Shown here one piece after another: positions 8,786-18,501 of a DNA stretch of 20,127 nt (the first letter of the stretch is position 1; the number at the start of each line of letters is the position of its first letter). Under the pieces are notes generated by a model. The model was given only the letters and a program-made list of their open reading frames with translations. It had not been told where the DNA came from and searched no databases. The position numbers were made by a program, and so were the translations under genes. This stretch comes from a virus: the IMG/VR virus record IMGVR_UViG_3300022187_000331, positions 1 to 20,127 of that record; one strand, written 5' to 3'.

Positions 8786-9156
8786 TGCTTAAATTGTTGA
8801 TTGGTCCGATTGCTGATCTTGCTGGTGGATTCCTAAAGAACAAGGCAGAGCAAGCAAAAGCCAAACATGAAGCTAAAATGAACGTGATTCAGAACGATGC
8901 TGATTGGGAAGCTAAGATGGCTGATGCTTCTGGCAATAGCTGGAAAGATGAATTCTGGACCATCGTTCTAGCAGTGCCTATCTTTATGGTTGGTTATGCA
9001 ATAGTAGTAGATGATATGACGGTAATACATAGAGTAGAGCAAGCATTTGCCGCATTAAATGATCTGCCAGAGTGGTATCAGTATTTATTGTTTGTGGCGA
9101 TCTCTGCTAGTTTTGGGATCAAAGGCGCAAGCAAATTGATGAACATGAGGAAGTAA
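8785..9156 (+). CDS. Holin, 3-TM GTA type
   Basis: 123 residues from the ATG at 8785 (TAATG overlap); an in-frame ATG at 8728 lies inside the previous gene and is not preferred. The order matches the GTA_holin_3TM family (PF11351). A short N-terminal amphipathic/hydrophobic helix (LLIGPIADLAGGFL) is followed by a charged helix containing NDADWEAKMADASGNSWKDE, a membrane segment (FWTIVLAVPIFMVGYAIVV), and LPEWYQYLLFVAISASFGIK near the C-terminus. Such holins form membrane lesions that release the endolysin to the cell wall. The endolysin gene follows after one base. An alternative is a simple membrane protein of unknown role, but motif and context agree well. Confidence 0.85.
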   Translation: MLKLLIGPIADLAGGFLKNKAEQAKAKHEAKMNVIQNDADWEAKMADASGNSWKDEFWTIVLAVPIFMVGYAIVVDDMTVIHRVEQAFAALNDLPEWYQYLLFVAISASFGIKGASKLMNMRK

Positions 9157-9157
9157 A

Positions 9158-9550
9158 ATGGCTAAATCACCTAAGAAAGAAAAGCTAAATTATTTCAAGC
9201 CCAAAGAGTTAAAGTGCAAGCATACTGGTGAGGAAGGATTCGACAAAGACTTTCTTGAGACCCTGAACGCTATTCGACATGAGTGCGGTTTTAGCTTTGC
9301 CCTATCCAGTGCCTACAGAAGCCCCCAACACCCCATAGAAGCGCGTAAAGAGGTTCTAGGGGCGCATACCACTGGTAAGGCGGTAGATATACTAGCCAGC
9401 GGAGAAAAGGCGTTAGAGATCATTAGAGTGGCTCAGAAGCATGGTATACAACGAATAGGTATACAGCAAAAGGGATCGGGTCGATTTATACACCTAGATG
9501 GCTGTACTGAAGATGATGGATTCCCCTGCCCTGCTATCTGGTCATACTAG
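9158..9550 (+). CDS. Endolysin, Peptidase M15-type
   Basis: 130 residues, the usual size for single-domain M15_3 phage peptidases. The zinc-site pattern is visible: SSAYRSPQHP, then H70 and D77 in GAHTTGKAVDI, and H112 in RFIHLDG. These enzymes cut peptide bonds in the peptidoglycan stem or cross-bridge and act as endolysins. There is no signal peptide, so export depends on the holin encoded just upstream. A GAGGAAG Shine-Dalgarno lies before ATG 9158. Four cysteines are present (C20, C43, C116, C124). A tail-associated peptidase role is possible but the lysis-cassette position argues for an endolysin. Confidence 0.88.
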   Translation: MAKSPKKEKLNYFKPKELKCKHTGEEGFDKDFLETLNAIRHECGFSFALSSAYRSPQHPIEARKEVLGAHTTGKAVDILASGEKALEIIRVAQKHGIQRIGIQQKGSGRFIHLDGCTEDDGFPCPAIWSY

Positions 9551-9565
9551 TTCCACATAGAACAT

Positions 9566-9590
9566 AAAAAAGCCCCACCGAAGCGGGGCT
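9566..9590 (-). terminator. Intrinsic terminator of the minus-strand unit
   Basis: Read on the minus strand, the stem GCCCCGC/GTGGGGC (one G.U pair, plus a closing A-T) is capped by a C(UUCG)G tetraloop and followed by a run of T. It starts 6 bases after the stop of the 61-residue minus gene. On the + strand there is no U-run, so it acts in the minus direction. Confidence 0.88.
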
Positions 9591-9596
9591 GTTAGG

Positions 9597-9782
9597 TTAG
9601 TTGTCAGTAGATAATCTCAATACTGGTTCATCTGGCTCAACGTAAAATCTGCCTACGCTATCGTAAGGGCAATGAATTATCTTCCCTGTATTCCACCAAA
9701 TGCCATGTCCCTTGACCATTATCTGACCATCTGCATTTCTGAATATATCGCAATCGTTTAATTTTTCAAAAGTTGTTTTCAT
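9597..9782 (-). CDS. Hypothetical small protein, second gene of minus-strand unit
   Basis: 61 residues, not recognised. It begins MKTTFEKLNDCDIFRNADGQ and contains KGHGIWWNTG and FYVEPDEPV. The alternating hydrophobic pattern suggests a small beta-rich soluble fold; no membrane segment or metal motif is seen. The ATG at 9780-9782 (minus) has an AAGGA Shine-Dalgarno about 10 bases upstream. It lies 49 bases downstream of the 73-residue minus gene and ends just before a strong intrinsic terminator. Orientation opposite to all flanking genes, with its own promoter upstream, gives it the look of a moron (an extra gene expressed independently). Function unknown. Confidence 0.75.
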   Translation of the reverse strand: MKTTFEKLNDCDIFRNADGQIMVKGHGIWWNTGKIIHCPYDSVGRFYVEPDEPVLRLSTDN

Positions 9783-9806
9783 TAGGTTTTATCCTTTATT
9801 GATAAT

Positions 9807-9825
9807 GCCCCACCGAAGCGGGGCT
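9807..9825 (-). other. Intergenic stop-linked hairpin (copy on minus strand)
   Basis: The hairpin is the same GCCCCGC-UUCG-GUGGGGC structure as the terminator at 9566-9590. It lies inside a 29-base exact direct repeat (9572-9600 and 9807-9835) that includes the stop codon of each minus-strand gene. Here the stem is followed on the minus strand by ATTATC, not a U-run, so it probably acts as a weak terminator, processing site or 3' end stabiliser between the two genes. Confidence 0.75.
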
Positions 9826-9831
9826 GTTAGG

Positions 9832-10053
9832 TTAGCGTATCCCGTGGGACATGTCTTCTATCAAATGACTATAGACTTGAGGCATTACGCCTGCCCCCCT
9901 GTAGCCAAAGCTAACCACAATGCAAGACGCTTCGGTTGACTGCCACAGTTGACCTTTAGGTAGCCACACCTCTGCTTCGCCATGCTCTCTATTTATAAAT
10001 AACTCTGCTTTGTGCTTTGCGGCTTCTTTCCTAACTTGCGCTAATGTTGGCAT
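9832..10053 (-). CDS. Hypothetical small protein, first gene of minus-strand unit
   Basis: 73 residues from the ATG at 10053 (minus). This start is preferred over a longer reading with a hydrophobic N-terminus because AGAGGA sits 6-7 bases upstream, and because the longer version would run through the promoter. The sequence MPTLAQVRKEAAKHKAELFI starts with a basic helix. It is followed by EAEVWLPKGQLWQST, a probable strand pair, and CIVVSFGYRGAG. No known family is recognised. It is the first gene downstream of a perfect consensus sigma70 promoter, so early and strong expression is expected. Candidate roles such as host takeover or exclusion of other phages are speculation from moron-like placement. 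Confidence 0.75.
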   Translation of the reverse strand: MPTLAQVRKEAAKHKAELFINREHGEAEVWLPKGQLWQSTEASCIVVSFGYRGAGVMPQVYSHLIEDMSHGIR

Positions 10054-10111
10054 ATTATTCCTCTTGGTTTTTTGATTTTTAAAGAACGTGCCATTCAGTG
10101 ATGGCATAGCC

Positions 10112-10140
10112 ATTATACAACAAGTAAACAATAATGTCAA
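10112..10140 (-). promoter_or_regulatory. Perfect consensus sigma70 promoter (minus strand)
   Basis: On the minus strand TTGACA (10140-10135) is separated by exactly 17 bases from TATAAT (10117-10112). Both hexamers match consensus at all positions. It drives the two minus-strand genes, with transcription expected to begin near 10105. Confidence 0.92.
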
Positions 10141-10178
10141 TACACCTATTTTAAATAATATGTACAAAAGTGTTGACA
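10135..10178. promoter_or_regulatory. Inverted repeat covering both divergent -35 boxes
   Basis: TGTCAATACAC (10135-10145) and GTGTTGACA (10170-10178) are near-inverted copies, each containing the -35 hexamer of one of the two divergent promoters, with an AT-rich spacer containing TTTTAAATAATATG. This could be an operator that controls both directions or could simply reflect two similar promoters facing away from each other. Confidence 0.45.
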
Positions 10179-10201
10179 ATGCCTTTTAGGGGGTGTACTG
10201 T
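10173..10201 (+). promoter_or_regulatory. Early promoter of the + strand recombination operon
   Basis: TTGACA (10173-10178), 17-base spacer, then TACTGT (10196-10201) preceded by TG. The -35 is perfect and the -10 matches 3 of 6. Two bases later comes the conserved leader motif CACCTCAATCAAT (10204-10216). The same -10/leader layout recurs before the gene at 17260, which strengthens the call. Confidence 0.7.
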
Positions 10202-10203
10202 AG

Positions 10204-10225
10204 CACCTCAATCAATCAAAAAAGG
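10204..10225 (+). repeat. Conserved 5' leader motif, copy 1
   Basis: CACCTCAATCAAT followed by an A-rich stretch and the AAAGG Shine-Dalgarno (10221-10225). The same 13 bases and AAAGG occur at 17229-17250. It is part of the untranslated leader of the 205-residue zinc-finger gene. Confidence 0.7.
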
Positions 10226-10235
10226 TAATAAAGAC

Positions 10236-10853
10236 ATGGCTAAATTATATAAAAGAGGTTGTCACAAGTGCGATGGAACTGGCACCTTGCCACACTACTA
10301 CTGGATTCAAAGTGGTAGTTGCTTTACCTGTGGCGGTCTTGGTTACTTCACCGTTAAGACTGACCCCGCCATCCTTGATGCGCGTAAGGCCAAGGCCGCT
10401 GAGAAGCGTGAAGCCAAGAAAGAGGCAGAGCGTCAGGCGCACATCAAGCGCAACTTCTGGAAAAAGATCGCCAGTGGTATTCGTCAGGCAGTGTGGGCGG
10501 CAGAGCGTGAGATTGAGAACGCTAATGCAGAAGCTATCGTTAACGGTAAGCAATCCATCACGGGTGAGATCATCAGCACCAAGGTTGTCGATGGCTTTGC
10601 CTACGGCCAACGTGTTGTCAAGATGGTCGTTAAAGATGATCGCGGATTTAAGGTGTGGGGTACAGTGCCGCAAGCCATTTTAGATGAATATGTTTACCGT
10701 TCAGGAATAGGGTTTGATGCTGATGAAAATTACTGGAACTACAATGTTCTGAAAGGTCAGCGCGTCACATTCTCTGCCACTGTCGAAGCGTCAAATGACG
10801 ATGACAAGTTCGGCTTCTTTAAACGCCCAACCAAGGCCGCGATTGCGGCTTAA
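10236..10853 (+). CDS. Phage protein with DnaJ-type zinc-finger motifs
   Basis: 205 residues from ATG 10236. An upstream in-frame start at 10170 is rejected because it would overlap the promoter and leader. Two CxxCxGxG motifs (C9-C12 and C29-C32) form a DnaJ-like zinc site. A basic helical linker rich in Ala, Lys, Glu and Arg spans about 49-75. A C-terminal domain (about 120-200) includes ITGEIISTKVVDGFAYGQRV, KVWGTVP and KGQRVTFSATVEASNDD, a pattern that looks beta-barrel-like, then FGFFKRPTKA. It opens the early operon that encodes recombination proteins. Nucleic-acid binding or a chaperone-like role is possible; neither is shown. The gene is framed by a leader and a stop-hairpin element shared with the gene at 17260. 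Confidence 0.75.
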   Translation: MAKLYKRGCHKCDGTGTLPHYYWIQSGSCFTCGGLGYFTVKTDPAILDARKAKAAEKREAKKEAERQAHIKRNFWKKIASGIRQAVWAAEREIENANAEAIVNGKQSITGEIISTKVVDGFAYGQRVVKMVVKDDRGFKVWGTVPQAILDEYVYRSGIGFDADENYWNYNVLKGQRVTFSATVEASNDDDKFGFFKRPTKAAIAA

Positions 10854-10860
10854 TCTAACC

Positions 10861-10876
10861 GCCCCCGCGAGGGGGC
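10861..10876 (+). other. Stop-linked GC hairpin after the zinc-finger gene
   Basis: GCCCCC-GCGA-GGGGGC, a 6-bp stem with a GNRA tetraloop and no U-run. It begins 7 bases after the stop. The 16 bases from the stop into the stem (10851-10866) are identical to 17518-17533. It may be a 3'-stabilising or attenuating hairpin rather than a full terminator, since the operon continues. Confidence 0.75.
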
Positions 10877-10895
10877 ACTTGCTGTAGGAGGCAAT

Positions 10896-11054
10896 ATGGG
10901 AATAAATGATCTTAACGATCTAGAGCGCGGTGAGTACGACTGCGTTGTAGGTTATCCTGCCCTAGAGGGGCAATCAGATGCTTACTATGTTGGGTATGGT
11001 GAGCAGTACGCAAAAGAACAGGCTATAGGAGGCCGAAACAATGAAGTCAAGTGA
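10896..11054 (+). CDS. Small conserved-type phage protein, 52 residues
   Basis: 52 residues beginning MGINDLNDLERGEYDCVVGY and continuing with PALEGQSDAYYVGYGEQYAK. Short phage proteins with this spaced pattern (Y-x-C, GY-P, GQS-x-AY, GYG-x-x-Y) occur in early regions of other phages, by my recollection; function is unknown. A strong AGGAGG (10886-10891 region) stands 4-5 bases before the ATG. The last 14 bases overlap the start of the erf gene, whose own Shine-Dalgarno lies inside this reading frame, suggesting coupling. Its aromatic and acidic content suggests a small soluble partner protein. Confidence 0.7.
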   Translation: MGINDLNDLERGEYDCVVGYPALEGQSDAYYVGYGEQYAKEQAIGGRNNEVK

Positions 11055-11604
11055 CGCAATAAATGAACTGGCAAATGCACTCTGCAATGCTCAGTCGCAA
11101 ATGGGGGGTGCTGTTAAAGACAGTGCCAACCCTTTCTTTAAATCTAGCTATGCCGATCTAACGGCAGTTATCAAGGCCATCAAACAGCCCTTTGCTGATA
11201 ACGGTCTAAGCTATACCCAGTTCCCAGTCACCGATGAAAATGGAATGGGAGTTTGCACAAGGCTTATGCACGTTTCTGGGCAATGGCTAGAAGGTCAATT
11301 TACTCTGCCAGTGGTTAAGCGTGACCCACAGGCGGCTTCAAGCTCCCTGACGTATGCGCGTCGTGTATCTTTATCTTCTATCGCAGGGATTCCTACGGCA
11401 GATGATGACGCTGAATCTGCAATGCTACGGGGTGATGATAAGAAGATTATCTCTGATGACCAGATCATAGCCATCAAGAAATTACTTGATGAGACTGGTG
11501 CTGATAGTGAGAAATTCTGCAAGTGGCTCAAGGTTCGGTCAGTCGATCAGATTCTTGAGATTCACTATGATCGCGCTGTTGCCGCACTAGAGGCTAAGAA
11601 GTGA
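11041..11604 (+). CDS. erf: ERF-family single-strand annealing protein
   Basis: 187 residues. The N-terminal ~120 residues carry the ERF (PF04404) signature: NPFFKSSYADLTAVIKAI, GLSYTQFPV, then SSLTYARRVSLSSIAGIPTA followed by acidic DDDAE. These proteins anneal complementary single strands during phage recombination and genome circularisation. The C-terminal ~50 residues (IISDDQIIAIKKLLDETGAD and after) form a small helical domain often attached to ERF or related recombinases. AGGAGG lies about 8 bases before ATG. The stop overlaps the GTG of the exonuclease gene (GTGA), so annealing protein and exonuclease are produced together, as in lambda Red-type pairs. Confidence 0.9.
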   Translation: MKSSDAINELANALCNAQSQMGGAVKDSANPFFKSSYADLTAVIKAIKQPFADNGLSYTQFPVTDENGMGVCTRLMHVSGQWLEGQFTLPVVKRDPQAASSSLTYARRVSLSSIAGIPTADDDAESAMLRGDDKKIISDDQIIAIKKLLDETGADSEKFCKWLKVRSVDQILEIHYDRAVAALEAKK

Positions 11605-12212
11605 TTATCTTAGACCATGAGCAGGGATCACCAGAGTGGCTTGCCGCAAGATTGGGTAAGCCATCTGCCAGTATGTTTAATAAGCTAATTACGCAAACTG
11701 GGAAGCCATCGTCATCTGCTGATGGGTACATCAATGAGTTAATCGCAGAGCGCATTACAGGTAAATCTGAGCCGTTTCATGTGACCGAATGGATTGAGCG
11801 CGGCACAGCATTAGAGCCAGAAGCTAGAGAGGCATATGAGTTTATCTCTGGCAATGAGGTTCTTGAAACTGGCTTTATTTTAGATACCGATTGGGAGTTT
11901 GGATGCTCCCCTGATGGCTTGATACTTGAGAACGGGGATAGCTTGGGAGGATTGGAAATCAAATGCCCTGCGCCTAGAACGATGGTTAGTTACTTACGTG
12001 ATCCACAGGTAGGCGTTAAGAAATACTGGCAACAAATCCAAGGCTGTATGTGGATAACCAGAAGGGGGTGGTGGGACTTCTTTGCTTATCATCCTGAAAT
12101 GCCGCACGTTTTGGTGCGGGTTGAGCGCGATGATGACTATATCGCAAAACTAGCTACAGAGGTGGATAAGGCTGTGGCTGAAATTGTAAACCAAGTGGAG
12201 TTGTTAAAATGA
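11601..12212 (+). CDS. YqaJ-type (lambda Exo-like) exonuclease
   Basis: 203 residues starting with GTG at 11601, overlapping the previous stop. The order fits the YqaJ viral recombinase fold: GSPEWLAARLGKPSAS (9-24), EWIERGTALEPEAREAYE (63-80), the metal centre D105 in GCSPDGLI, E119 and K121 in GLEIKCP (the D...ExK motif), then YWQQIQGCMW (142-151) with the conserved glutamines. Such enzymes resect double-stranded ends 5' to 3', giving the single strands that ERF anneals. Its place between ERF and an SSB-like gene supports a phage-encoded recombination operon. All expected catalytic residues are present. Confidence 0.92.
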   Translation: MIILDHEQGSPEWLAARLGKPSASMFNKLITQTGKPSSSADGYINELIAERITGKSEPFHVTEWIERGTALEPEAREAYEFISGNEVLETGFILDTDWEFGCSPDGLILENGDSLGGLEIKCPAPRTMVSYLRDPQVGVKKYWQQIQGCMWITRRGWWDFFAYHPEMPHVLVRVERDDDYIAKLATEVDKAVAEIVNQVELLK

Positions 12213-12511
12213 AAGTAGGATTATCTGTAAGAATCGATGTAACCAAGATAGATAAGTCTCGCCTATACAAAGGGGCAAAGGGTACTTATCTCGATCTAAC
12301 TACCTTTGTGGATACTGAAGAGCAAGACCAGTATGAGAACAATGGTTTTATATCTCAATCTACCACCAAGGAAGAGCGCGAGGCTAACGTACAGACCCCG
12401 ATACTGGGTAACGTAAAGGTATTTTATACCGATGGCAGTACGCCCAGCAGTGCGCCTGTAGAGCAATCTGGCATGAGTCTGGAAGAGTTAGATGAGGATG
12501 TGCCGTTCTAG
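12209..12511 (+). CDS. Single-stranded DNA-binding protein-like, with SSB acidic tail
   Basis: 100 residues. The first ~75 look like a small beta-rich (OB-like) domain (MKVGLSVRIDVTKIDKSRLY, TYLDLTTFVD, LGNVKVFYTD). The C-terminus is a flexible Ser/Pro linker ending in EELDEDVPF, which closely resembles the acidic tip of bacterial and phage SSBs that binds partner proteins. It follows the exonuclease with an ATGA overlap. Expected role: coat single strands made by the exonuclease and recruit replication or repair proteins. The core is too divergent to identify by motif alone, so the call leans on the tail and context. Confidence 0.8.
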   Translation: MKVGLSVRIDVTKIDKSRLYKGAKGTYLDLTTFVDTEEQDQYENNGFISQSTTKEEREANVQTPILGNVKVFYTDGSTPSSAPVEQSGMSLEELDEDVPF

Positions 12512-12514
12512 GGT

Positions 12515-12538
12515 AAAAAAGCCCCCTCGAAAGGGGGC
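12515..12538 (-). terminator. Hairpin with U-tract only on the minus strand
   Basis: GCCCCCT-CGAA-AGGGGGC (12521-12538) forms a 7-bp stem. The A6 run at 12515-12520 becomes a U-run on the minus strand. On the + strand the stem is followed by AAACC. It could stop antisense transcription coming from the right, or act as a 3' hairpin for the SSB-like gene, whose stop lies just 9 bases before it. Confidence 0.6.
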
Positions 12539-12601
12539 AAACCATAGGAGGTTGCGAGTCGGGGGAACCCGCCTAATTAATATAACACAAGGTTTTTAAT
12601 C

Positions 12602-12811
12602 ATGGAATTAATCGACACTGGCAGATGCTTAATTGCCGCCCAAAGAAGCAAAGGCGTTAACAGTCGCCAGCTTGCAAAAATTGCTAAGACATCGCCACAG
12701 CAGGTATTAAGATGGCGCAAAAGCAAGAACATGAAGATACACACAATACAGTTGTTGTGCTTATCTTTGGATATATCAATTACTGATTTTATATCATTTG
12801 GTTATAAGTAG
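12602..12811 (+). CDS. Small helix-turn-helix DNA-binding protein
   Basis: 69 residues with a Cro/CI-like helix-turn-helix: SRQLAKIAKTSPQQVLRWRK (about 21-40), preceded by a helix containing LIAAQRSKG and followed by MKIHTIQLLCLSLDISITDF. This matches small XRE or phage regulator folds. It lacks any extra domain, so it is more like a Cro or accessory regulator than a CI repressor. The Shine-Dalgarno before ATG 12602 is weak (AAGG, 9 bases away). It stands alone between an upstream hairpin and a long non-coding stretch downstream. Targets are unknown; the inverted repeats at 10135-10178 and 17055-17130 are candidates. Confidence 0.7.
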   Translation: MELIDTGRCLIAAQRSKGVNSRQLAKIAKTSPQQVLRWRKSKNMKIHTIQLLCLSLDISITDFISFGYK

Positions 12812-13169
12812 GCTTTTGAGTTTACTTTGACCGCTTAATCTTTTAAGGTTCAAAAAGTATTCGGGTGTGTGGATTGGGAATTTGTAACCCATGAACGAGA
12901 GTGACCCCTCTATTAGCACCTCTTGATTGGTTTGACTGCTGAGCAAGAAATAACGATTAATGCGTCTAGGCGCAAGGGCAACGGAACTGCTACTGATTCT
13001 AAATACGGATACGATTAAGTCACTAAGTCGCTTTAAGCCCTTAGATTTGTAAATTATGCTTTTCAAGGTGTAAAGGGTTGGATCATCTTGAAGAAAGTAT
13101 AAACAAAGTTTAAACAAAAATAATTTATTAATCACTTGGCGAGGCTTGCCGAGCCATAGGAAAACAAAA
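12812..13169. other. 358-base stretch without a convincing gene
   Basis: No + strand gene is supported here. Visible elements are a tandem TAAGTC(A/G)C pair (13016-13031), two CGATTAA copies near 12954 and 13012, AT-rich repeats with TATAAACAAAG and GTTTAAAC near 13098-13115, and a small dyad TGGC...GCCA with internal GGC/GCC at 13137-13156 just before the next gene. A 113-codon minus-strand frame (12794-13135, GTG start, no Shine-Dalgarno) is open but unconvincing. Candidate roles are a regulatory region or replication origin; the sequence does not decide. Confidence 0.5.
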
Positions 13170-13415
13170 ATGAAAAATTACATAATAGAATGTACTGCTG
13201 TAATTACAGAAACTCGTGAATATATAGTACAAGCAAATAATGAAGAAGAAGCGTGTGATTTAGTGTTGAATTCAGGCGGGCAGGAAAAAGCTGATATGTC
13301 AACTTATGCTTTGTATTATGGTACTGAAGAAAATCTTTACCATTGTCATGCCAGTTCTGTCGGTGAGGTTGATGATGAAACTGCAAAACTACATTTGGGG
13401 GATCAATTCAAATGA
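13170..13415 (+). CDS. Hypothetical small protein
   Basis: 81 residues from ATG 13170, with AGGA about 8 bases upstream; a longer TTG start at 13146 is disfavoured. It begins MKNYIIECTAVITETREYIV and continues with QANNEEEACDLVLNSGG. The pattern of strand, then helix with EEA, resembles small phage proteins in which a beta strand of the form YxVxAxxxEEA precedes a helix (DpnD/PcfM-like), though the resemblance is only in pattern. No membrane segment. The stop overlaps the next start (ATGA at 13412-13415), so it is coupled to the PD-(D/E)XK-like gene. Function unknown. Confidence 0.65.
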   Translation: MKNYIIECTAVITETREYIVQANNEEEACDLVLNSGGQEKADMSTYALYYGTEENLYHCHASSVGEVDDETAKLHLGDQFK

Positions 13416-13918
13416 AAATACGTTTAAGCAAACAGGATTCGCACACTTGTCAATTAATGGGTGCTGATACTGTAAAACTATGCGAGATGCAGGGATTCGC
13501 TCCACGACTTGATAATAAAAAGCAATCTAGAACAGAGGCTAATGTTTACGGATTTAAGGCAGAATTTGCTGTTGCCAGATTGTTTAATTTAGAATTGCCT
13601 ACCGTTAATGTAGCTACAGATGGGGGCGTTGATTTATGGTTCGGGGACTTTACCATTGATGTTAAATTTACCAATGATGAATACGGAAATCTTATTTTCG
13701 ATTCTATGGAAAAATTTAAATCACAAATTGGCATACTGGTGGGGAGAACTGATGATCCAGATGTCATGCGTGTCAATGGTTGGATGGATCGCGCTAACTT
13801 TAAAAAAACGTGTCATAGTCACAATTTCGGATATGGCGATAGGCTCTACTTAAAGCATGATGAATTATTGCCAATAGAGAGTTTATGGTCGAGACTGATG
13901 CAACACAAATTCCAATAG
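13412..13918 (+). CDS. PD-(D/E)XK nuclease-like phage protein
   Basis: 168 residues. A nuclease-type motif is readable: E51 in YGFKAEFAVARLF, D74 in DGGVDLWFGDF, then D83 and K85 in TIDVKFTN, giving E...D...DxK as in PD-(D/E)XK enzymes. The second half has GILVGRTDDPDVMRVNGW and a C-terminal GYGDRLYLKHDELLPIESLW, typical of this group of phage nuclease-like proteins. It may cut host or recombining DNA, or process branched structures, but substrate is unknown and it may be an accessory repair protein. It follows a small gene with an ATGA overlap and precedes a replication-associated gene. The fold is inferred from the motif; activity is not shown. Confidence 0.75.
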   Translation: MKIRLSKQDSHTCQLMGADTVKLCEMQGFAPRLDNKKQSRTEANVYGFKAEFAVARLFNLELPTVNVATDGGVDLWFGDFTIDVKFTNDEYGNLIFDSMEKFKSQIGILVGRTDDPDVMRVNGWMDRANFKKTCHSHNFGYGDRLYLKHDELLPIESLWSRLMQHKFQ

Positions 13919-13926
13919 GAGGGATT

Positions 13927-14298
13927 ATGTTATTAAATACTAAAGAAGATTGGCAACCAGAAGAAGCAGATGTAATTGCATGGCAGAGAGCCTACCCTGC
14001 TATCAATGTTCACCAAGAATTAGCCGCCATGGAGTCGTGGTGCGATGCTAACCCTACCAAAAGAAAGACATCCAAAGGCATCAAGCGGTTTGTTAATTCG
14101 TGGTTATCTAGGGCGCAAGATCGGGGCGGTTCGCCACAAGCTAAGTCAGCCACTAAGTCAGATTCTATTCGCGCTAAAACCATTGATATGCAACTCACAG
14201 ATATATCGTGGCTAGACGGTGAAGATTACGAAAAAATGAAACAGTATTATCTAGAGACTCGCGGCTTTTATTATGACGGGGGTTTAATCAATGGCTAG
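13927..14298 (+). CDS. Replication-associated protein, phage replisome C-terminal-like
   Basis: 123 residues from ATG 13927, chosen for the AGGAGG 5-6 bases upstream; an in-frame ATG at 13885 lies inside the previous gene. Residues ~15-60 carry the pattern W-x-x-AYPAINVHQEL, MESWCDANPTKRKT, GIKRFVNSWLSRAQDRGG. I know this pattern from the C-terminal region of many phage replication-initiation or replisome organiser proteins, where it stands after the initiator domain. Here it is nearly alone, with a short acidic helical tail. It may recruit the host replisome or act with another initiator. Stop overlaps the next start by 8 bases (ATGGCTAG). Confidence 0.65.
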   Translation: MLLNTKEDWQPEEADVIAWQRAYPAINVHQELAAMESWCDANPTKRKTSKGIKRFVNSWLSRAQDRGGSPQAKSATKSDSIRAKTIDMQLTDISWLDGEDYEKMKQYYLETRGFYYDGGLING

Positions 14299-14629
14299 TA
14301 AATATCACCCAGCAAAAATCCCCTTTAAAGGCGAGCATCCATATTTTAAAGATGGCAAGGCGTACAGCTATCGTGAATATAGTAACTGGACTTTCCAAAA
14401 TGATGAGCGCAATGGCATCGTGCCTTCTACCATGAAAGGCAGATTAAGGGGGCAACCATTCTGTGAGGCTAGGCATTTATATCCTATTGCAGACTTTGCC
14501 GCTACCAGCGAGAAGATCAAAAAGCTAAGAGGCTATTGCAAGGAAGCTAGACTGCGTGTTCTAAACTCGCCCCGTCTGGAGGGCAAATCACAGAAGATGT
14601 CAGATAAGTGGTTGAGGGTTAAGTTGTGA
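14291..14629 (+). CDS. Hypothetical basic protein
   Basis: 112 residues, basic, not recognised. It begins MASKYHPAKIPFKGEHPYFK and includes YSYREYSNWTFQNDERNG. The C-terminus is Lys/Arg-rich (KIKKLRGYCKEARLRV, KMSDKWLRVKL). The charge suggests nucleic-acid contact. It overlaps the previous gene by 8 bases and the next (ninB) by 4 (GTGA), so it is translated as part of the replication/recombination run. Function unknown. Confidence 0.7.
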   Translation: MASKYHPAKIPFKGEHPYFKDGKAYSYREYSNWTFQNDERNGIVPSTMKGRLRGQPFCEARHLYPIADFAATSEKIKKLRGYCKEARLRVLNSPRLEGKSQKMSDKWLRVKL

Positions 14630-15072
14630 GTCAGGGCGATCACGTTAGGATCAACAGTAAGCGCGAGTCTGAAGATAGGCTTCCGTTTCTTTTGAAAAGG
14701 ATCGAGGCGTGGGATTACTCTGCGCCTTTAGTCGTTAAATTAGAGCCCTACAAAGACCCGCGATCACTGAGCCAGAATGCTTTGTTTCATGTTTGGTGCG
14801 CTGAGTTATCGGAGGCGTTTATTAAGAAAGTGCCTACCGCTAACAAAGAAAATATGAAGCTGATGCTCAAGCAACGGTTTTTAGGTACTTATGATATTCA
14901 GATAGGCAAGACGCTGATAGAAGGTCAGGTAAAGTCATCTTCTAAGCTAACGAAAGGCGAAATGGTACACTTTATGGATAACGTGTATCATTGGGCTAGG
15001 GAAAACGGGGTGCTGTTGAAGGTTCCGCATGACAGCGAGTACGCGAGGTTACAAAACCAGCAGGAGAGTTAA
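14626..15072 (+). CDS. ninB: NinB/Orf-like recombination mediator
   Basis: 148 residues starting with GTG at 14626, overlapping the previous stop. The NinB (PF05772) pattern is clear: KDPRSLSQNALFHVWCAELS (about 44-63), then ANKENMKLMLKQRFLG, and STKLTKGEM-like SSKLTKGEMVHFMDNVYHWA (about 108-127). In lambda, NinB (Orf) binds single-stranded DNA and SSB and can replace the host RecFOR loading function. Here it lies in the same gene block as ERF, exonuclease and SSB, completing a phage recombination set. Length is as expected for the family. Confidence 0.88.
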   Translation: MSQGDHVRINSKRESEDRLPFLLKRIEAWDYSAPLVVKLEPYKDPRSLSQNALFHVWCAELSEAFIKKVPTANKENMKLMLKQRFLGTYDIQIGKTLIEGQVKSSSKLTKGEMVHFMDNVYHWARENGVLLKVPHDSEYARLQNQQES

Positions 15073-16251
15073 ATGGACAAGATCGATCCTAGAGTGTTAA
15101 AGGAATTTGCAACTACAGATAGGCATCACGAAGTATTGGATGCTGTTATTGAAACTGGATCAGCTAACAAGGCGGCTAGAAAGCTAAGTTGTAATAGACG
15201 CAGTGTTGACAGGTTATTAAAATCATTAGAGGAAAAGGCCGCCTCTCAGGGCGTAGCCCCGCACAGGGATTTGGTTCACCAGACCGCAGAGGGATTTGAA
15301 GCCAAGCGAATATCTACCGCATATAAGGAAGATGGTTCTCAAGCCCTGCAATGGGTTATTCAGGAGAGAGCCAAGGGATTAAATAAAGATCAAATAGTGG
15401 ATGCCATCGAGGGTTTCGAGTGGAAGCCAGCCCCCAAGATAAAGCCGCCTAAAGGTCATGATTCTGAATTATTAACGCTCTACACTCTGACTGATTTTCA
15501 CTTAGGTATGTATAGCTGGGCGGCTGAAACTGGTGATGATTGGGATATGTCGATAGCGGAGCATGAGGCTTTATCCGCAATAACCAGAATGGCAGATGGA
15601 TCACCTAATAGCGAGTTGGCTATTTTAAATCTACAGGGCGACTTCCTGCATTGGGATGGATTACTAGCTGTAACTCCCGCCAGTAAGCACGTACTTGATG
15701 CCGATACGCGATATGGCAAGCTAATAGAAATGGCTTTATCTCTTACAATGCAGTGTATCGAAATACTTTTAACCAAGCATAAAAAAGTAAAGCTATTGGT
15801 TTGCGAAGGCAACCATGATGAGTCTGGCTCTGCTTGGCTCAGAAAAGCGGCAAAGGTTATTTATAAAAATAATCCAAGGCTAGAGGTCGATGATACTGAG
15901 TTTCCTTATTACGCGCATTTGCATGGCGAGATAATGCTAGGCTTCCACCACGGCCATAAAAAGAAAAATACCGCACTTCCTACTTTGTTTAGCGCAGAGC
16001 CTAGATATAGGGCTATGTGGGGTCAGGCCAAATACTGCTATATACACACAGGTCACTATCACCATAAAGAACAGGATGCATCTGAGGGAGGCGGGGCTAT
16101 TGTAGAACGCCACCCAACTCTTGCGGGTGCTGATGCTTATGCCGCTAGAGGCGGTTATGTAAGTTGGAGGGCGGCTCATGCAATCACCTATCATAATCGC
16201 ACTGGAGAGCATTCCCGCAAAACGGTAGTGCCAAGTTTACGAGATGAGTAA
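15073..16251 (+). CDS. Metallophosphoesterase with N-terminal helix-turn-helix
   Basis: 392 residues. The first ~55 form a helix-turn-helix (GSANKAARKLSCNRRSVDRL). The calcineurin-like phosphoesterase domain runs from about 134 to 380. Its metal ligands are in order: D141 and H143 (LTDFHLG), D190 (LQGDFLHWDG), N247-H248 in CEGNHDE, H292 and H295 (FHHGH), and H328 and H330 (HTGHYHH). All are present, so activity is likely. The substrate could be a nucleic acid or nucleotide; the DNA-binding N-terminus favours a nucleic acid. Such HTH-phosphoesterases are frequent in marine and lambda-like phages near recombination genes. It starts at the base after the ninB stop. Confidence 0.87.
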   Translation: MDKIDPRVLKEFATTDRHHEVLDAVIETGSANKAARKLSCNRRSVDRLLKSLEEKAASQGVAPHRDLVHQTAEGFEAKRISTAYKEDGSQALQWVIQERAKGLNKDQIVDAIEGFEWKPAPKIKPPKGHDSELLTLYTLTDFHLGMYSWAAETGDDWDMSIAEHEALSAITRMADGSPNSELAILNLQGDFLHWDGLLAVTPASKHVLDADTRYGKLIEMALSLTMQCIEILLTKHKKVKLLVCEGNHDESGSAWLRKAAKVIYKNNPRLEVDDTEFPYYAHLHGEIMLGFHHGHKKKNTALPTLFSAEPRYRAMWGQAKYCYIHTGHYHHKEQDASEGGGAIVERHPTLAGADAYAARGGYVSWRAAHAITYHNRTGEHSRKTVVPSLRDE

Positions 16252-16423
16252 TGTTATTAACTTTCCGAAAAGTGGAATTAGTGCTGTTAGACAGTTTTGC
16301 GATTGCGGTAATGGCCTCGAGTATTGGGTTGGCGATGATGACAATGCTTATGGCATTTGCCCTTATTGCAATCTTGGGATTCCATGCGAAGTTAAAATGC
16401 TTGAAACGGAGGAAGATGAGTGA
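16244..16423 (+). CDS. Small zinc-ribbon-like protein
   Basis: 59 residues from ATG 16244, overlapping the previous stop by 8 bases (ATGAGTAA), the same style of overlap as at 14291. Cysteines C19 and C21 (QFCDCGNG) and C39, C42 and C48 (ICPYCNLGIPC) give a probable zinc ribbon. The end is acidic (MLETEEDE). A different frame that is open through the same bases (16251-16529) encodes a composition unlike any phage protein and is rejected. The stop overlaps the GTG of the next gene. Small zinc ribbons in phage operons often contact RNA polymerase or DNA; here the role is unknown. Confidence 0.75.
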   Translation: MSNVINFPKSGISAVRQFCDCGNGLEYWVGDDDNAYGICPYCNLGIPCEVKMLETEEDE

Positions 16424-16650
16424 GTGCGTTGAACAAACAGGAAGGGGGCGATCATTACAAGTTAGCGATCCAGCCGATAGAATATATCACCGCGAACAAT
16501 TTAGATTTTATTCGCGGAAATATCGTTAAGTACGCGACTAGGGATAAAAATGGCGCGGAAGATATTAAAAAGATCATCCACTACTGTGAACTATTGTTAG
16601 AGTTGGAATATGGCGAAGAAGAAGAAATCTACGGTCGCGCAAGAGGTTGA
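16420..16650 (+). CDS. DUF3310 protein
   Basis: 76 residues beginning with GTG at 16420. The DUF3310 (PF11753) pattern is plain: GGDHYKLAIQPIEYITANN, then LDFIRGNIVKYATR, NGAEDIKKIIHYCELLLELE. These small proteins occur in many phages, often annotated nucleotide kinase-like without proof. The stop of the zinc ribbon overlaps its start, and its own last 41 bases overlap ninG. Function in the phage is unknown, probably early. Confidence 0.88.
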   Translation: MSALNKQEGGDHYKLAIQPIEYITANNLDFIRGNIVKYATRDKNGAEDIKKIIHYCELLLELEYGEEEEIYGRARG

Positions 16651-17041
16651 AAAGGCGGCCAAGCTATTACAAAGGTTGGTTAGGTTAAAGGCATCAGATG
16701 ATAACGGGTACTGCACCTGCGTAACGTGCGGCAAGGTAGATCACTATAAGAATATGCAGGGCGGTCATTTCTACTCCCGTAGGCATATAGTATTCAAGCT
16801 ATTTGAAGAGAACATCCACCCCCAATGCCCTGCTTGCAACCAGTGGGGCATGAAAACCACCAAAATCCAAGAAGCCTATCGGATATACATGGAAGATACG
16901 TATGGTGCTAGGCGCATCAGGGCAATGCAAAGGCTGGCTTGGAGGGCATCGCCTAAGTTCAACAGAGAAGAAGTAATCCAGTTCGCCAGAGACTTAAAAG
17001 AGCAGATCAAAGAGCAAGAGTGGCGCATAGGCGAAATGTAG
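16610..17041 (+). CDS. ninG: NinG/Rap-like recombination nuclease
   Basis: 143 residues from ATG 16610, overlapping the DUF3310 gene by 41 bases. After a basic start (MAKKKKSTVAQEVEKAAKLL) come the paired metal-binding elements of NinG (PF05766): C37-x2-C40 in CTCVTCGKVD, the GGHFYSRRH segment (51-59), and C73-x2-C76 in HPQCPACNQWG. In lambda, NinG (Rap) is an endonuclease for Holliday junctions and D-loops. It ends the recombination block; a 218-base region with repeats follows. All expected residues are visible. An HNH-type homing nuclease is the alternative, but the full-length match in pattern supports NinG. Confidence 0.88.
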   Translation: MAKKKKSTVAQEVEKAAKLLQRLVRLKASDDNGYCTCVTCGKVDHYKNMQGGHFYSRRHIVFKLFEENIHPQCPACNQWGMKTTKIQEAYRIYMEDTYGARRIRAMQRLAWRASPKFNREEVIQFARDLKEQIKEQEWRIGEM

Positions 17042-17054
17042 CGCAGTAAAGTGT

Positions 17055-17101
17055 CGTATTTTTGCATTTATATGTACGTATTTTTGCTATATGTACGTAT
17101 G
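17055..17101. repeat. Tandem CGTATTTTTGC / ATGTACGTAT repeats
   Basis: CGTATTTTTGC at 17055-17065 and 17077-17087, and ATGTACGTAT at 17072-17081 and 17091-17100, each centred on the palindrome TACGTA. Spacing is 22 and 19 bases. It lies in an AT-rich intergenic stretch ahead of a promoter, so the repeats may be operator or replication sites. Confidence 0.65.
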
Positions 17102-17109
17102 TTTTCACA

Positions 17110-17130
17110 TTTTCGCCATATATGCGAAAA
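17110..17130. repeat. Perfect 7-bp inverted repeat
   Basis: TTTTCGC (17110-17116) and GCGAAAA (17124-17130) flank the 7-base centre CATATAT. As DNA it is a dyad fit for a dimeric regulator; as RNA it would be a hairpin without a following U-run. It is about 70 bases upstream of the promoter at 17198. Confidence 0.65.
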
Positions 17131-17197
17131 AGCTATAAGCAGATTCGTTTTATTGCAAAATGTTATATAAAAACCATGATTATTGTATACAGAAAAG

Positions 17198-17226
17198 TTT
17201 ACTTTAGGCGGTAGATCGTTTATTGT
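17198..17226 (+). promoter_or_regulatory. Promoter of the small accessory gene cluster
   Basis: TTTACT (17198-17203), 17-base spacer, TATTGT (17221-17226), each 4 of 6 consensus. Two bases after the -10 the leader CACCTCAATCAAT (17229-17241) begins, exactly as at the promoter 10173-10201, and AAAGG follows at 17246-17250. The match between the two sites is the main support. Confidence 0.6.
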
Positions 17227-17228
17227 TA

Positions 17229-17250
17229 CACCTCAATCAATTAATAAAGG
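17229..17250 (+). repeat. Conserved 5' leader motif, copy 2
   Basis: The 13 bases CACCTCAATCAAT and the following AAAGG are shared with 10204-10225. A shorter CAATCAATCAA form occurs again at 17543-17553, before the gene at 17564. Confidence 0.7.
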
Positions 17251-17259
17251 CGAAACAAA

Positions 17260-17520
17260 ATGAAAGACTGGAACAAAGAGTTTGTAAAAATACTAGAAAC
17301 TTTGGAAAACGAAGCAGGGTCAAGGGGGCAGGACAATCCAGAAGCCTATGCCGCGCTGATTCAAATTCAAGACTGGATTTGGGGAGACCATGACTTATTA
17401 ATCACTTTTGCTGATGATGATGAGGCGTATGACCGCAGGGAGTATGCTGTTGTTATGTCCGAAATTGAAGCTAACGATTTATGCGACAAGCCATATTTTA
17501 AAGATATATACGCAATCTAA
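17260..17520 (+). CDS. Hypothetical acidic protein
   Basis: 86 residues, acidic and helical, not recognised. It begins MKDWNKEFVKILETLENEAG and continues with NPEAYAALIQIQDWIWGDHD, then a run of acidic residues (ADDDEAYDRREY). No cysteine pattern or membrane segment. ATG 17260 has AAAGG 9 bases upstream. The gene is framed by a leader shared with the zinc-finger gene at 10236 and a stop-hairpin element also shared with it, although the two proteins are unrelated. Function unknown; small acidic phage proteins sometimes mimic DNA or bind host enzymes, which is speculation here. Confidence 0.75.
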   Translation: MKDWNKEFVKILETLENEAGSRGQDNPEAYAALIQIQDWIWGDHDLLITFADDDEAYDRREYAVVMSEIEANDLCDKPYFKDIYAI

Positions 17521-17527
17521 TCTAACC

Positions 17528-17543
17528 GCCCCCTACGGGGGGC
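17528..17543 (+). other. Stop-linked GC hairpin after the acidic gene
   Basis: GCCCCC-TACG-GGGGGC, a 6-bp stem capped by a UNCG-type tetraloop, beginning 7 bases after the stop. The first 16 bases from the stop (17518-17533) are identical to 10851-10866. No U-run follows. Confidence 0.75.
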
Positions 17544-17563
17544 AATCAATCAAGGGGAATAAT

Positions 17564-17728
17564 ATGATTAACCATCCTTACAAAGTCGGCCAAGAAGCCG
17601 CACGAATTGAGCGCAAGAAACGCGCAGAAAGCAGACAGGCAATGGTAGCGGCAGTAGTTTTGTTTCTTATATTTAGCATTGTTTCACATATGGAATACAC
17701 CGACTGCGTCAAATACGGTGTATGTTAG
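17564..17728 (+). CDS. Small single-pass membrane protein
   Basis: 54 residues from ATG 17564, with an AAGGGG Shine-Dalgarno about 6-11 bases upstream. The N-terminal ~25 are basic (VGQEAARIERKKRAESRQ), followed by one membrane segment (MVAAVVLFLIFSIVSHM, about 27-43) and a short end with two cysteines (TDCVKYGVC). The basic N-terminus should stay inside the cell and the cysteine-bearing end outside. It stands between a hairpin and a strong intrinsic terminator, as a separate transcription unit end. Function unknown; possible roles include membrane-level exclusion or lysis control. Confidence 0.7.
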   Translation: MINHPYKVGQEAARIERKKRAESRQAMVAAVVLFLIFSIVSHMEYTDCVKYGVC

Positions 17729-17741
17729 TTTCTCCCCTCTT

Positions 17742-17763
17742 GCCCCCTTCGGGGGGCTTTTTT
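17742..17763 (+). terminator. Intrinsic terminator
   Basis: GCCCCC-UUCG-GGGGGC followed directly by TTTTTT on the + strand, 13 bases after the stop of the small membrane protein. This is the clearest + strand terminator in the window. Confidence 0.92.
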
Positions 17764-17775
17764 AAGGATAATAAT

Positions 17776-18240
17776 ATGAAAGCTGATTTAAGAGATTTTG
17801 TAGGTTGGGTCACATCAAGAGATGATAGATGGGATGGTGACTTGATCGCACTGAGCGACAGTGAGAAAGATGCTTGCTGTTATACGTGGCTTAAAATGCA
17901 TTCGACTTGGCTAGATGATATATTCCCGCATACATGTTCGGATAACTTTGATGCGGTGCTAGATTTAACTTATCGGATCGGGCAATATCAAGCGTTACCC
18001 TCTGGGTCGCTGGCTTACTATTTTAAGTCGAAAGAAACAGAATACCGCCATGAGTGCGATGATGACGGATTCTGGTCTGAGGCATTAGACGACTTCAAAG
18101 CTATATTAGACAATGATGACTTTGAAGAACTAATAAGGGGTAGAATATATCTCTATTTGGAAGATACTCTGAGGGAAAAGGTTTGGGATGAATTCTGCCA
18201 ATACCAAAGTATAGAGAGGGCATTTTCATGGGAACACTGA
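17776..18240 (+). CDS. Hypothetical acidic protein
   Basis: 154 residues from ATG 17776, with AAGGA about 8 bases upstream. Longer versions reading through the terminator are rejected. It begins MKADLRDFVGWVTSRDDRWD and is rich in Asp, Glu, Trp and Tyr, with helical stretches such as DDFKAILDNDDFEELIRGRI. No known motif or membrane segment. It directly follows a terminator, so its expression depends on readthrough or an unseen promoter. Its end overlaps the next small frame by 13 bases. Function unknown. Confidence 0.7.
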   Translation: MKADLRDFVGWVTSRDDRWDGDLIALSDSEKDACCYTWLKMHSTWLDDIFPHTCSDNFDAVLDLTYRIGQYQALPSGSLAYYFKSKETEYRHECDDDGFWSEALDDFKAILDNDDFEELIRGRIYLYLEDTLREKVWDEFCQYQSIERAFSWEH

Positions 18241-18395
18241 ATGCAGTTAATGAGTGGAAGCGTTTAAGAGAGTTATATCCAGCAATAGAAAAAAGCGAGG
18301 CAAATGATGAACCAGATAGAAAAAGCAATGAAAGAAGCCCACAGATTCGCAGACAAGGCGATAAAAGACGCCAACAAAAGCGACAGAATGGGTAA
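18228..18395 (+). CDS. Hypothetical small basic protein (overlaps next gene)
   Basis: 55 residues from ATG 18228, with AGAGAGGG 7 bases upstream. It starts MGTLNAVNEWKRLRELYPAI and becomes Arg/Gln/Lys-rich (IRRQGDKRRQQKRQNG). The last 92 bases overlap the next gene in another frame, so the C-terminal half may be constrained by that gene. The good Shine-Dalgarno supports translation. Alternatives: a short leader frame coupling translation of the next gene, or a non-functional frame. Confidence 0.5.
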   Translation: MGTLNAVNEWKRLRELYPAIEKSEANDEPDRKSNERSPQIRRQGDKRRQQKRQNG

Positions 18396-18501
18396 GATCA
18401 AAGAATGGCTAATGACTGATATAGTCGTAAAGCGTATGTATTTAGCGGTGATATACTTTAGTTTATTTGGGTTTATCGCTTTGGAGATATTGATTTACTA
18501 G
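18304..18501 (+). CDS. Small membrane protein with C-terminal anchor
   Basis: 65 residues from ATG 18304 (a second ATG follows at once) with GAGG 4-7 bases upstream. The first ~40 residues are a charged helix (QIEKAMKEAHRFADKAIKDA), and residues ~45-65 form one membrane segment (MYLAVIYFSLFGFIALEILI). A soluble helix with a C-terminal anchor is a build seen in phage lysis and exclusion proteins, but no family is recognised. It is the last gene before the structured intergenic region ahead of the terminase genes. Confidence 0.65.
   Translation: MMNQIEKAMKEAHRFADKAIKDANKSDRMGKIKEWLMTDIVVKRMYLAVIYFSLFGFIALEILIY

Follow-up and report, generated by a model that had tools for sequence, protein, structure and literature searches.

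Small genes exchanged between fixed leader and stop-hairpin borders at two sites in a group of phages

The virus record IMGVR_UViG_3300022187_000331, analysed here over its whole length of 20,127 bases (the window), carries two sites, A and B, at which small and unrelated genes lie between like borders, with a promoter and leader in front and a hairpin that begins at the stop codon behind. In related contigs the borders are kept at these two sites while the genes between them vary, and there is very little doubt that the contents have been exchanged between fixed borders. The mobile unit is a largely promoterless cassette, which is received by a dock that bears the promoter.

In the window, two unrelated proteins are encoded behind a like promoter and leader, as an earlier reading of this DNA made from its letters (the sequence-only reading) had claimed. 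The repeat extends over 33 nucleotides (nt) with 82% identity (10193-10225 and 17218-17250), and the -10 boxes are TACTGT and TATTGT, with 17 nt spacing in both. The gene ends are also alike, stop codon included, in a 27 nt repeat of 85% identity (10851-10877 and 17518-17544), where the hairpin loop is GCGA at site A and TACG at site B and no T-run follows either hairpin. The exact cores of these repeats are CACCTCAATCAAT for the leader and TAATCTAACCGCCCCC for the stop-hairpin. There are exactly two copies of CACCTCAATCAAT in the window; allowing three mismatches there are 6 against 6.7 expected, which is not informative. The 5' arm of the hairpin, TAATCTAACCGCCCC, has four matches in the window with three or fewer mismatches, against 0.43 expected, and none of 100 shuffles reaches four. 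The two additional matches lie where the minus-strand genes 9832-10053 and 9597-9782 end, so that the two motif loci listed by the sequence-only reading are both real but are not the only genes here with such an end. Neither the site A nor the site B promoter is listed by a promoter consensus scan, both -10 boxes being weak.

The relatives were taken from IMG/VR contigs as the best 80 of 203 for NinG and the best 80 of 315 for ERF, two proteins encoded near the sites; those compared, cited below by handles such as L135, are mostly fragments, and several resemble re-assemblies of one population. Genes were called with a simple script in which bordered open reading frames (ORFs) were favoured among overlapping ones, gene families are single-linkage BLASTP clusters, and genes are counted as distinct on the gene plus 40 nt flanks, after removal of 27 of 277 loci that were contained in others. 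A leader scan of the viral collection gave 46 loci, of which about 21 seem genuine on reading and the rest resemble chance matches within genes; it places the same promoter and leader ahead of different genes.

The 117 distinct genes at site A fall into 46 families, 30 of which have at least one border, and the 105 at site B into 45 families, 35 of which do. The bordered families number 58 in total, 7 of them common to both sites. Both borders are present in 36 of the 117 distinct genes at site A, in 30 of the 105 at site B, and in 22 of 4613 elsewhere, some of these 22 being at other cassette sites or on contigs that break off close to A or B. The promoter consensus of each site is matched across many families in the relatives (24 at site A, 26 at site B). 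Among the matches listed for site A, 76 distinct of 105 loci have many genes between leader and hairpin, followed by CATTTGCTGTAGGAGG; site B has 49 distinct segments (72 loci) with one to three tandem genes or none.

When the intervals between neighbouring conserved genes are considered, bordered genes are found in only two of 16, those of sites A and B. The site A interval, from the M15 peptidase to a small gene, has 35 states in 69 segments, with both borders in 37 of 70 genes, and the site B interval, from NinG to a membrane gene, has 29 states in 48 segments, with both borders in 25 of 53 genes. The other 14 intervals hold 113 intervening genes, none with the leader or the hairpin; some of these vary too, for example with 12 states in 70 segments ahead of NinG.

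Close relatives differ in what they carry at site B. When the window is compared with L135, L137, L138, and L133, most 50-nt bins of the flanks are 88-100% alike, apart from one to three low ones close to the promoter, while the contents are unrelated or distantly related. The gene in L138, which diverges from the window beyond about 1,000 nt upstream of site B, is a distant member of the family of the window's gene of 86 amino acids (aa), and in L137 and L133 the promoter has also been exchanged relative to the window. On the NinG tree there are 37 content states in 64 rows, for which at least 40 changes are needed, and site B content differs in 10 of the 20 pairs whose NinG DNA is at least 95% identical. 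There are also empty sites: 9 of the 49 distinct segments have no ORF of at least 35 aa, and in the empty copies the leader directly precedes the 54 aa membrane-protein-like gene, as in L141, while L139 of the same subgroup has two genes there. Neither the same genes between the motifs everywhere nor a loss of the motifs from relatives was found, and the variable contents between constant borders that the sequence-only reading anticipated are present at both sites.

The same gene is also found at different sites. The 86 aa gene, at site B in the window, has a copy at site A in L081 (242 of 261 nt identical), and the same holds across sites for L042 and L239 (234 of 255 nt) and for L020 and L248 (246 of 267 nt). 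In these three pairs the linker before the ATG and the hairpin 5' arm largely match, travelling with the gene, while the promoter, loop, and 3' flank are the site's own; the exception is L239, with the loop TACG, as at B. The promoter therefore mostly stays with its site, which means that the moving unit starts inside the leader. The sequence-only reading had made promoter and leader together the front of the cassette, which holds for the linker of the leader but mostly not for the promoter. The TACG loop is present in 24 of 41 hairpins at site B and 1 of 45 at site A (Fisher p 3e-9, without correction for common ancestry); counted once per family, site, and loop, the figures are 15 of 31 and 1 of 30 (p 7e-5). 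The loop is not a perfect mark of the site, as is indicated by the five families that have hairpins at A and at B. One further gene, beginning MLGSGSLPN, has the site A promoter ahead of it in L023 and the site B promoter in L020, and its family occurs in at least five contexts.

Cassettes are shared, too, by otherwise unrelated contigs. In five of eleven contig pairs compared (L095/L239, L069/L115, L069/L096, L114/L265, and L081/L084) the cassette is the sole nucleotide match, with stretches of 190-323 base pairs (bp) at 93-98% identity that begin 13-38 nt before the ATG and run on past the stop for 12-30 nt, to the hairpin or its vicinity. A translated comparison of these five found nothing further in four and one weak match in L095/L239. 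Similar sharing is seen in L096/L115 and L062/L116, with further short matches, and L099/L074, L066/L217, L248/L285, and L042/L239 share more than the cassette.

The stop-hairpin is itself a recurrent end of genes. An exact scan of the viral collection found, among the matches listed, 84 copies of TAATCTAACCGCCCC in 80 loci; the complementary arm follows in 77, and in 72 of these an ORF of at least 40 aa also stops there, and the hairpins at ORF stops span 17 protein families. Of 89 hairpin genes, 81 stop with TAA; among the other genes called the figure is 2084 of 4613. Folding gives -14.8 kcal/mol (z -1.7) for the site A hairpin and -15.3 kcal/mol (z -3.1) for that of site B. In the relatives a T-run follows the hairpin in 0 of 46 hairpin genes at A and 1 of 43 at B, which would mean that it is probably not an intrinsic terminator and that its role in RNA is probably to protect the mRNA or to insulate. 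That the hairpin closes the cassette, as had been read from the window, is true of many contents but not of some, such as that of L137.

The features of the window are collected in Table 1. The N-terminus of the 205 aa protein has a weak DnaJ zinc-finger-like match, under the Pfam cut-off, and its structure model is poor (predicted local distance difference test score, pLDDT, 61.6). The 86 aa protein is predicted to be all-helical (pLDDT 88.9), and a fold search with this confident model and a family search gave no match. The minus-strand pair at 9597-10053 lies behind a perfect sigma-70 promoter (10112-10140). The families of these two genes appear elsewhere as a plus-strand cassette in L250, where the family of gene 9832-10053 is the site A cassette, and as a bordered gene in L087.

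Table 1. Features of sites A and B and of their neighbourhood in the window. RBS, ribosome-binding site.
Feature	Coordinates	Strand	Detail or basis
Second minus-strand gene, same stop-hairpin with T-run (terminator)	9597-9782	-	hairpin 9571-9590
Gene with related stop-hairpin TAACCTAACAGCCCC	9832-10053	-	hairpin 9807-9824
Site A promoter	10173-10201	+	-35 TTGACA 10173-10178, 17 nt, -10 TACTGT 10196-10201; read directly
Site A leader CACCTCAATCAAT..AAAAAAGG, 5' border	10204-10225	+	repeat comparison and relatives
Site A cassette gene, 205 aa	10236-10853	+	ORF list
Site A stop-hairpin TAATCTAACC-GCCCCC-GCGA-GGGGGC, 3' border, without T-run	10851-10876	+	sequence, folding
Site A 3' flank ACTTGCTGTAGGAGGCAAT, RBS of next gene, stays with site	10877-10895	+	relatives
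Fixed downstream neighbour of site A, 52 aa	10896-11054	+	relatives
ERF single-strand annealing recombinase (PF04404)	11041-11604	+	domain match
YqaJ-type exonuclease (PF09588)	11601-12212	+	domain match
NinG (PF05766), fixed upstream neighbour of site B	16610-17041	+	domain match, relatives
Site B promoter	17198-17226	+	-35 TTTACT 17198-17203, 17 nt, -10 TATTGT 17221-17226; read directly
Site B leader CACCTCAATCAATTAATAAAGG, 5' border	17229-17250	+	repeat comparison and relatives
Site B cassette gene, 86 aa	17260-17520	+	ORF list
Site B stop-hairpin TAATCTAACC-GCCCCC-TACG-GGGGGC, 3' border, without T-run	17518-17543	+	sequence, folding
Site B 3' flank AATCAATCAAGGGGAATAAT, second CAATCAA and RBS of next gene	17544-17563	+	sequence, relatives
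Fixed downstream neighbour of site B, 54 aa, membrane-protein-like	17564-17728	+	relatives

Another hairpin, at 12512-12545 in the window, follows a gene resembling those for single-stranded-DNA-binding proteins and has a conserved 3' flank, AAACCATAGGAG. The gene before this hairpin belongs to one family in 86 of 98 cases, the rest being four other families, among them one that is like single-stranded-DNA-binding proteins (SSB-like), and here it looks as though the protein was replaced while the hairpin remained. As it is mostly associated with one family, this hairpin (12514-12538) was not counted as a third site. In L005 (2495-3400) two cassettes stand in tandem; a true terminator closes the first, and the second is preceded by a leader of its own.

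Since the borders are common to unrelated cassettes and to the docks, their use as short recombination homologies seems the best explanation of the exchange, and from sequence comparison we consider it rather probable. Positions A and B would be docks for small accessory genes. On its 5' side each would have a promoter of sigma-70 type followed by a leader that ends in CTCAATCAAT, and on its 3' side the 3' half of a GC hairpin and the RBS of the next fixed gene. A cassette would bring its own ribosome-binding linker (e.g. AATAAAGGGCAACAAA-ATG), the gene, the stop codon, and the 5' arm of the hairpin. Homologous recombination would be the cause, with the leader and stop-hairpin annealed by ERF together with the YqaJ exonuclease, both encoded in the window, as the sequence-only reading had stated, and exchange through the borders would swap, add, or delete genes. 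NinG may resolve the intermediates of the exchange step, and the newcomer would remain under a working promoter, with a hairpin for stability or insulation after it. A match to ERF was found in 12 of 17 records.

The borders of moved genes were compared in 489 pairs of bordered genes with at least 80% nt identity, of which 99, in 23 gene groups, have unrelated far flanks on both sides. With at least 12 nt required for a shared 3' segment and 10 nt for a shared 5' segment, the 3' border is shared in 52 of the 99 and the 5' border in 34. The control consists of 711 moved pairs among 3956 unbordered ones, 528 of the 711 being the small gene beside site A; in these the 3' segment is shared in 20, the 5' in 162, both in 3, and neither in 532. 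These counts make the case strong for the 3' border and moderate for the 5' border, with many junctions elsewhere. A gene beginning MQLVTGDTYQT, encoding 128-130 aa, is found with the leader ahead and unrelated flanks in L179, L182, L185, L187, L192, and L193; its family has no shared border segments in the pair comparison.

Several observations weigh against the use of the borders as homologies. Although the sequence-only reading had both borders shared, and each is shared in many moved pairs, both segments are kept in only 10 of the 99 and neither in 23. The stretch shared by L062 and L116 starts only 2 nt before the ATG, and in the FTQL pairs the shared 5' run before the ATG is 0 nt. A stop-hairpin is missing from L137 and from several families at site B, and as the GC stems are alike everywhere a crossover within the stem cannot be exactly placed. 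Five of the 17 records, one of them 36.7 kb long, have no ERF match in the available sequence, and RecT, when sought in these five, was not found. The stretches of exact homology measure only 13 and 16 nt in the window, which is below the approximately 30 bp taken as the Red-beta minimum in PMC3945230, so that events would be rare. In favour of the explanation, the same paper reports that D3 Erf/Exo recombined substrates of 78% identity about as well as lambda Red, and that for the phi80 nin region, with a longest identity of 11 nt, recombinants were below 1e-8, the 12 that were scored all being at the expected locus.

It might instead be supposed that joining is illegitimate and occurs anywhere, and that the survivors are those that sit behind a working leader with a protective stop-hairpin, the borders then being shared for functional reasons. 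The leader and hairpin are plausible as functional RNA or DNA elements, contents without the hairpin exist, as in L137, and junctions at the ATG itself occur, with several 5' runs of 0-3. Such a filter would not, however, account for the shared 3' segment in 52 of 99 moved bordered pairs when 20 of 711 controls have one, for the travel of linker and hairpin arm while loop and promoter remain at the site, or for the confinement of bordered genes to two of the 16 intervals, and we think it unlikely. Allelic recombination in the long conserved flanks on the NinG and ERF sides could carry whole hotspot segments with the borders as passengers, and the likeness of the site B flanks over hundreds of nt is enough for it. 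This is probably true of many same-site swaps, but as a general account it is improbable, as it leaves unexplained both the same gene at A and B and the cassettes common to contigs without other nucleotide matches, provided that these cases are not artefacts of assembly.

A last alternative is that an integrase or transposase supplied in trans recognises the stop-hairpin, much as in integrons, where the attC half-site motif is RYYYAAC. In the hairpin genes this motif is fitted by an ATCTAAC ahead of the hairpin in 28 of 46 at A and 21 of 43 at B, the window included (10853-10859 and 17520-17526). Integrase-less attC clusters are described from virulent phages in passages of PMC9892861, but this alternative is very improbable here, as RYYYAAC before the hairpin is joined by GTTRRRY within 40 nt after it in only 6 of 46 and 1 of 43, the 5' side has GTTRRRY in 0 of 51 and 0 of 53, and no tyrosine recombinase (PF00589) or Y1 transposase was found in 17 records, which may be fragments, and no serine resolvase in 12.

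The cassette products are presumably accessory, perhaps with roles in counter-defence. When 62 bordered families were scanned, Pfam-A matched two of them, both domains of unknown function (DUFs) and with three members, PADLOC gave no match, and PHROGs matched 17, of which 16 are without a name. Among named phages, a search with both cassettes of the window and with the MLGSGS gene found distant hypothetical relatives for the 205 aa protein only. As the 86 aa protein is acidic, a DNA-mimic role was considered and rejected, cassettes as a class not being significantly more acidic (p 0.13). A megablast of window positions 9000-18500 against named phages, a search of the genome collection for ERF relatives, and an Rfam scan of the window gave no match. 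NinG and the tail protein of the window match distant phages only, and from these the phage group may be of marine setting.

Whether phage mosaicism arises through short conserved boundary sequences or through random joining followed by selection is an old question. With explicit borders, two sites, dozens of contents, differing close relatives, and empty sites, it becomes directly testable here. The borders are in addition a DNA tag by which new small accessory genes can be found.

Literature searches for a dock-and-cassette system of this kind found no published description. The closest known case is that of the promoter early stem loops (PeSLs) of T4-type phages, and the boundary sequences of lambdoid phages are also near. 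PeSLs were reportedly proposed (Arbiol 2010, Comeau 2014) to mediate gene shuffling by homologous recombination. They are cited in PMC4503421 and PMC3950731. A PeSL is a short repeat of promoter and stem-loop next to functionally uncharacterised small genes; here too a promoter and a stem-loop recur beside small genes that vary, and the tandem in L005 is near that arrangement. In the PeSL as described, terminator and promoter form one composite intergenic motif, whereas here the gene lies between promoter and hairpin, most promoters do not move with the cassette, and the hairpin is without the T-run. PeSLs belong to T4-type phages and T4 early promoters, while the tail, ERF, YqaJ, and NinG genes point elsewhere.

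The boundary sequences of lambdoid phages are said to go back to Susskind and Botstein (1978) and Clark (2001), and are alike in that short conserved sequences at module edges would provide homology for exchange. Passages of PMC3029335 state that they are not findable at most module boundaries. Here, in contrast, they are explicit, and are tied to many contents at a fixed place. Morons are single extra genes with a promoter and stem-loop between conserved genes, and the empty sites at B resemble them in that the extra gene is absent from some relatives. The contents described here differ from morons in mostly lacking their own promoter and intrinsic terminator, the promoter staying with the site in the aligned cross-site pairs and the T-run being almost always absent, and in that unrelated inserts have the same borders and the same sites.

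Integron cassettes are mostly promoterless and lie behind a fixed promoter. Those found in phages as integrase-less attC clusters (CALINs), to judge from passages of PMC9892861, are likewise small tandem genes ending in a hairpin, but here no integrase was found (PF00589 in 0 of 17 records) and there is no complete attC-like site. It may tentatively be suggested, with considerable reserve, that the present system is an integrase-free counterpart of the integron, in which promoter-bearing docks receive promoterless cassettes traded across unrelated phages, the borders would be expression signals and standard recombination ends at once, and more than 50 families would form a pluggable pool. The start-associated sequences (SAS) and extended SAS (ESAS) of cluster K mycobacteriophages are, in passages of PMC3203893, also short repeats before genes of different families, for which the authors suggest recombination; they sit at the translation start, and those passages describe no 3' hairpin partner or fixed-site content swap. 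A promoter-bearing dock, with mostly promoterless cassettes that end in half a hairpin, is an arrangement distinct from that of the PeSL.

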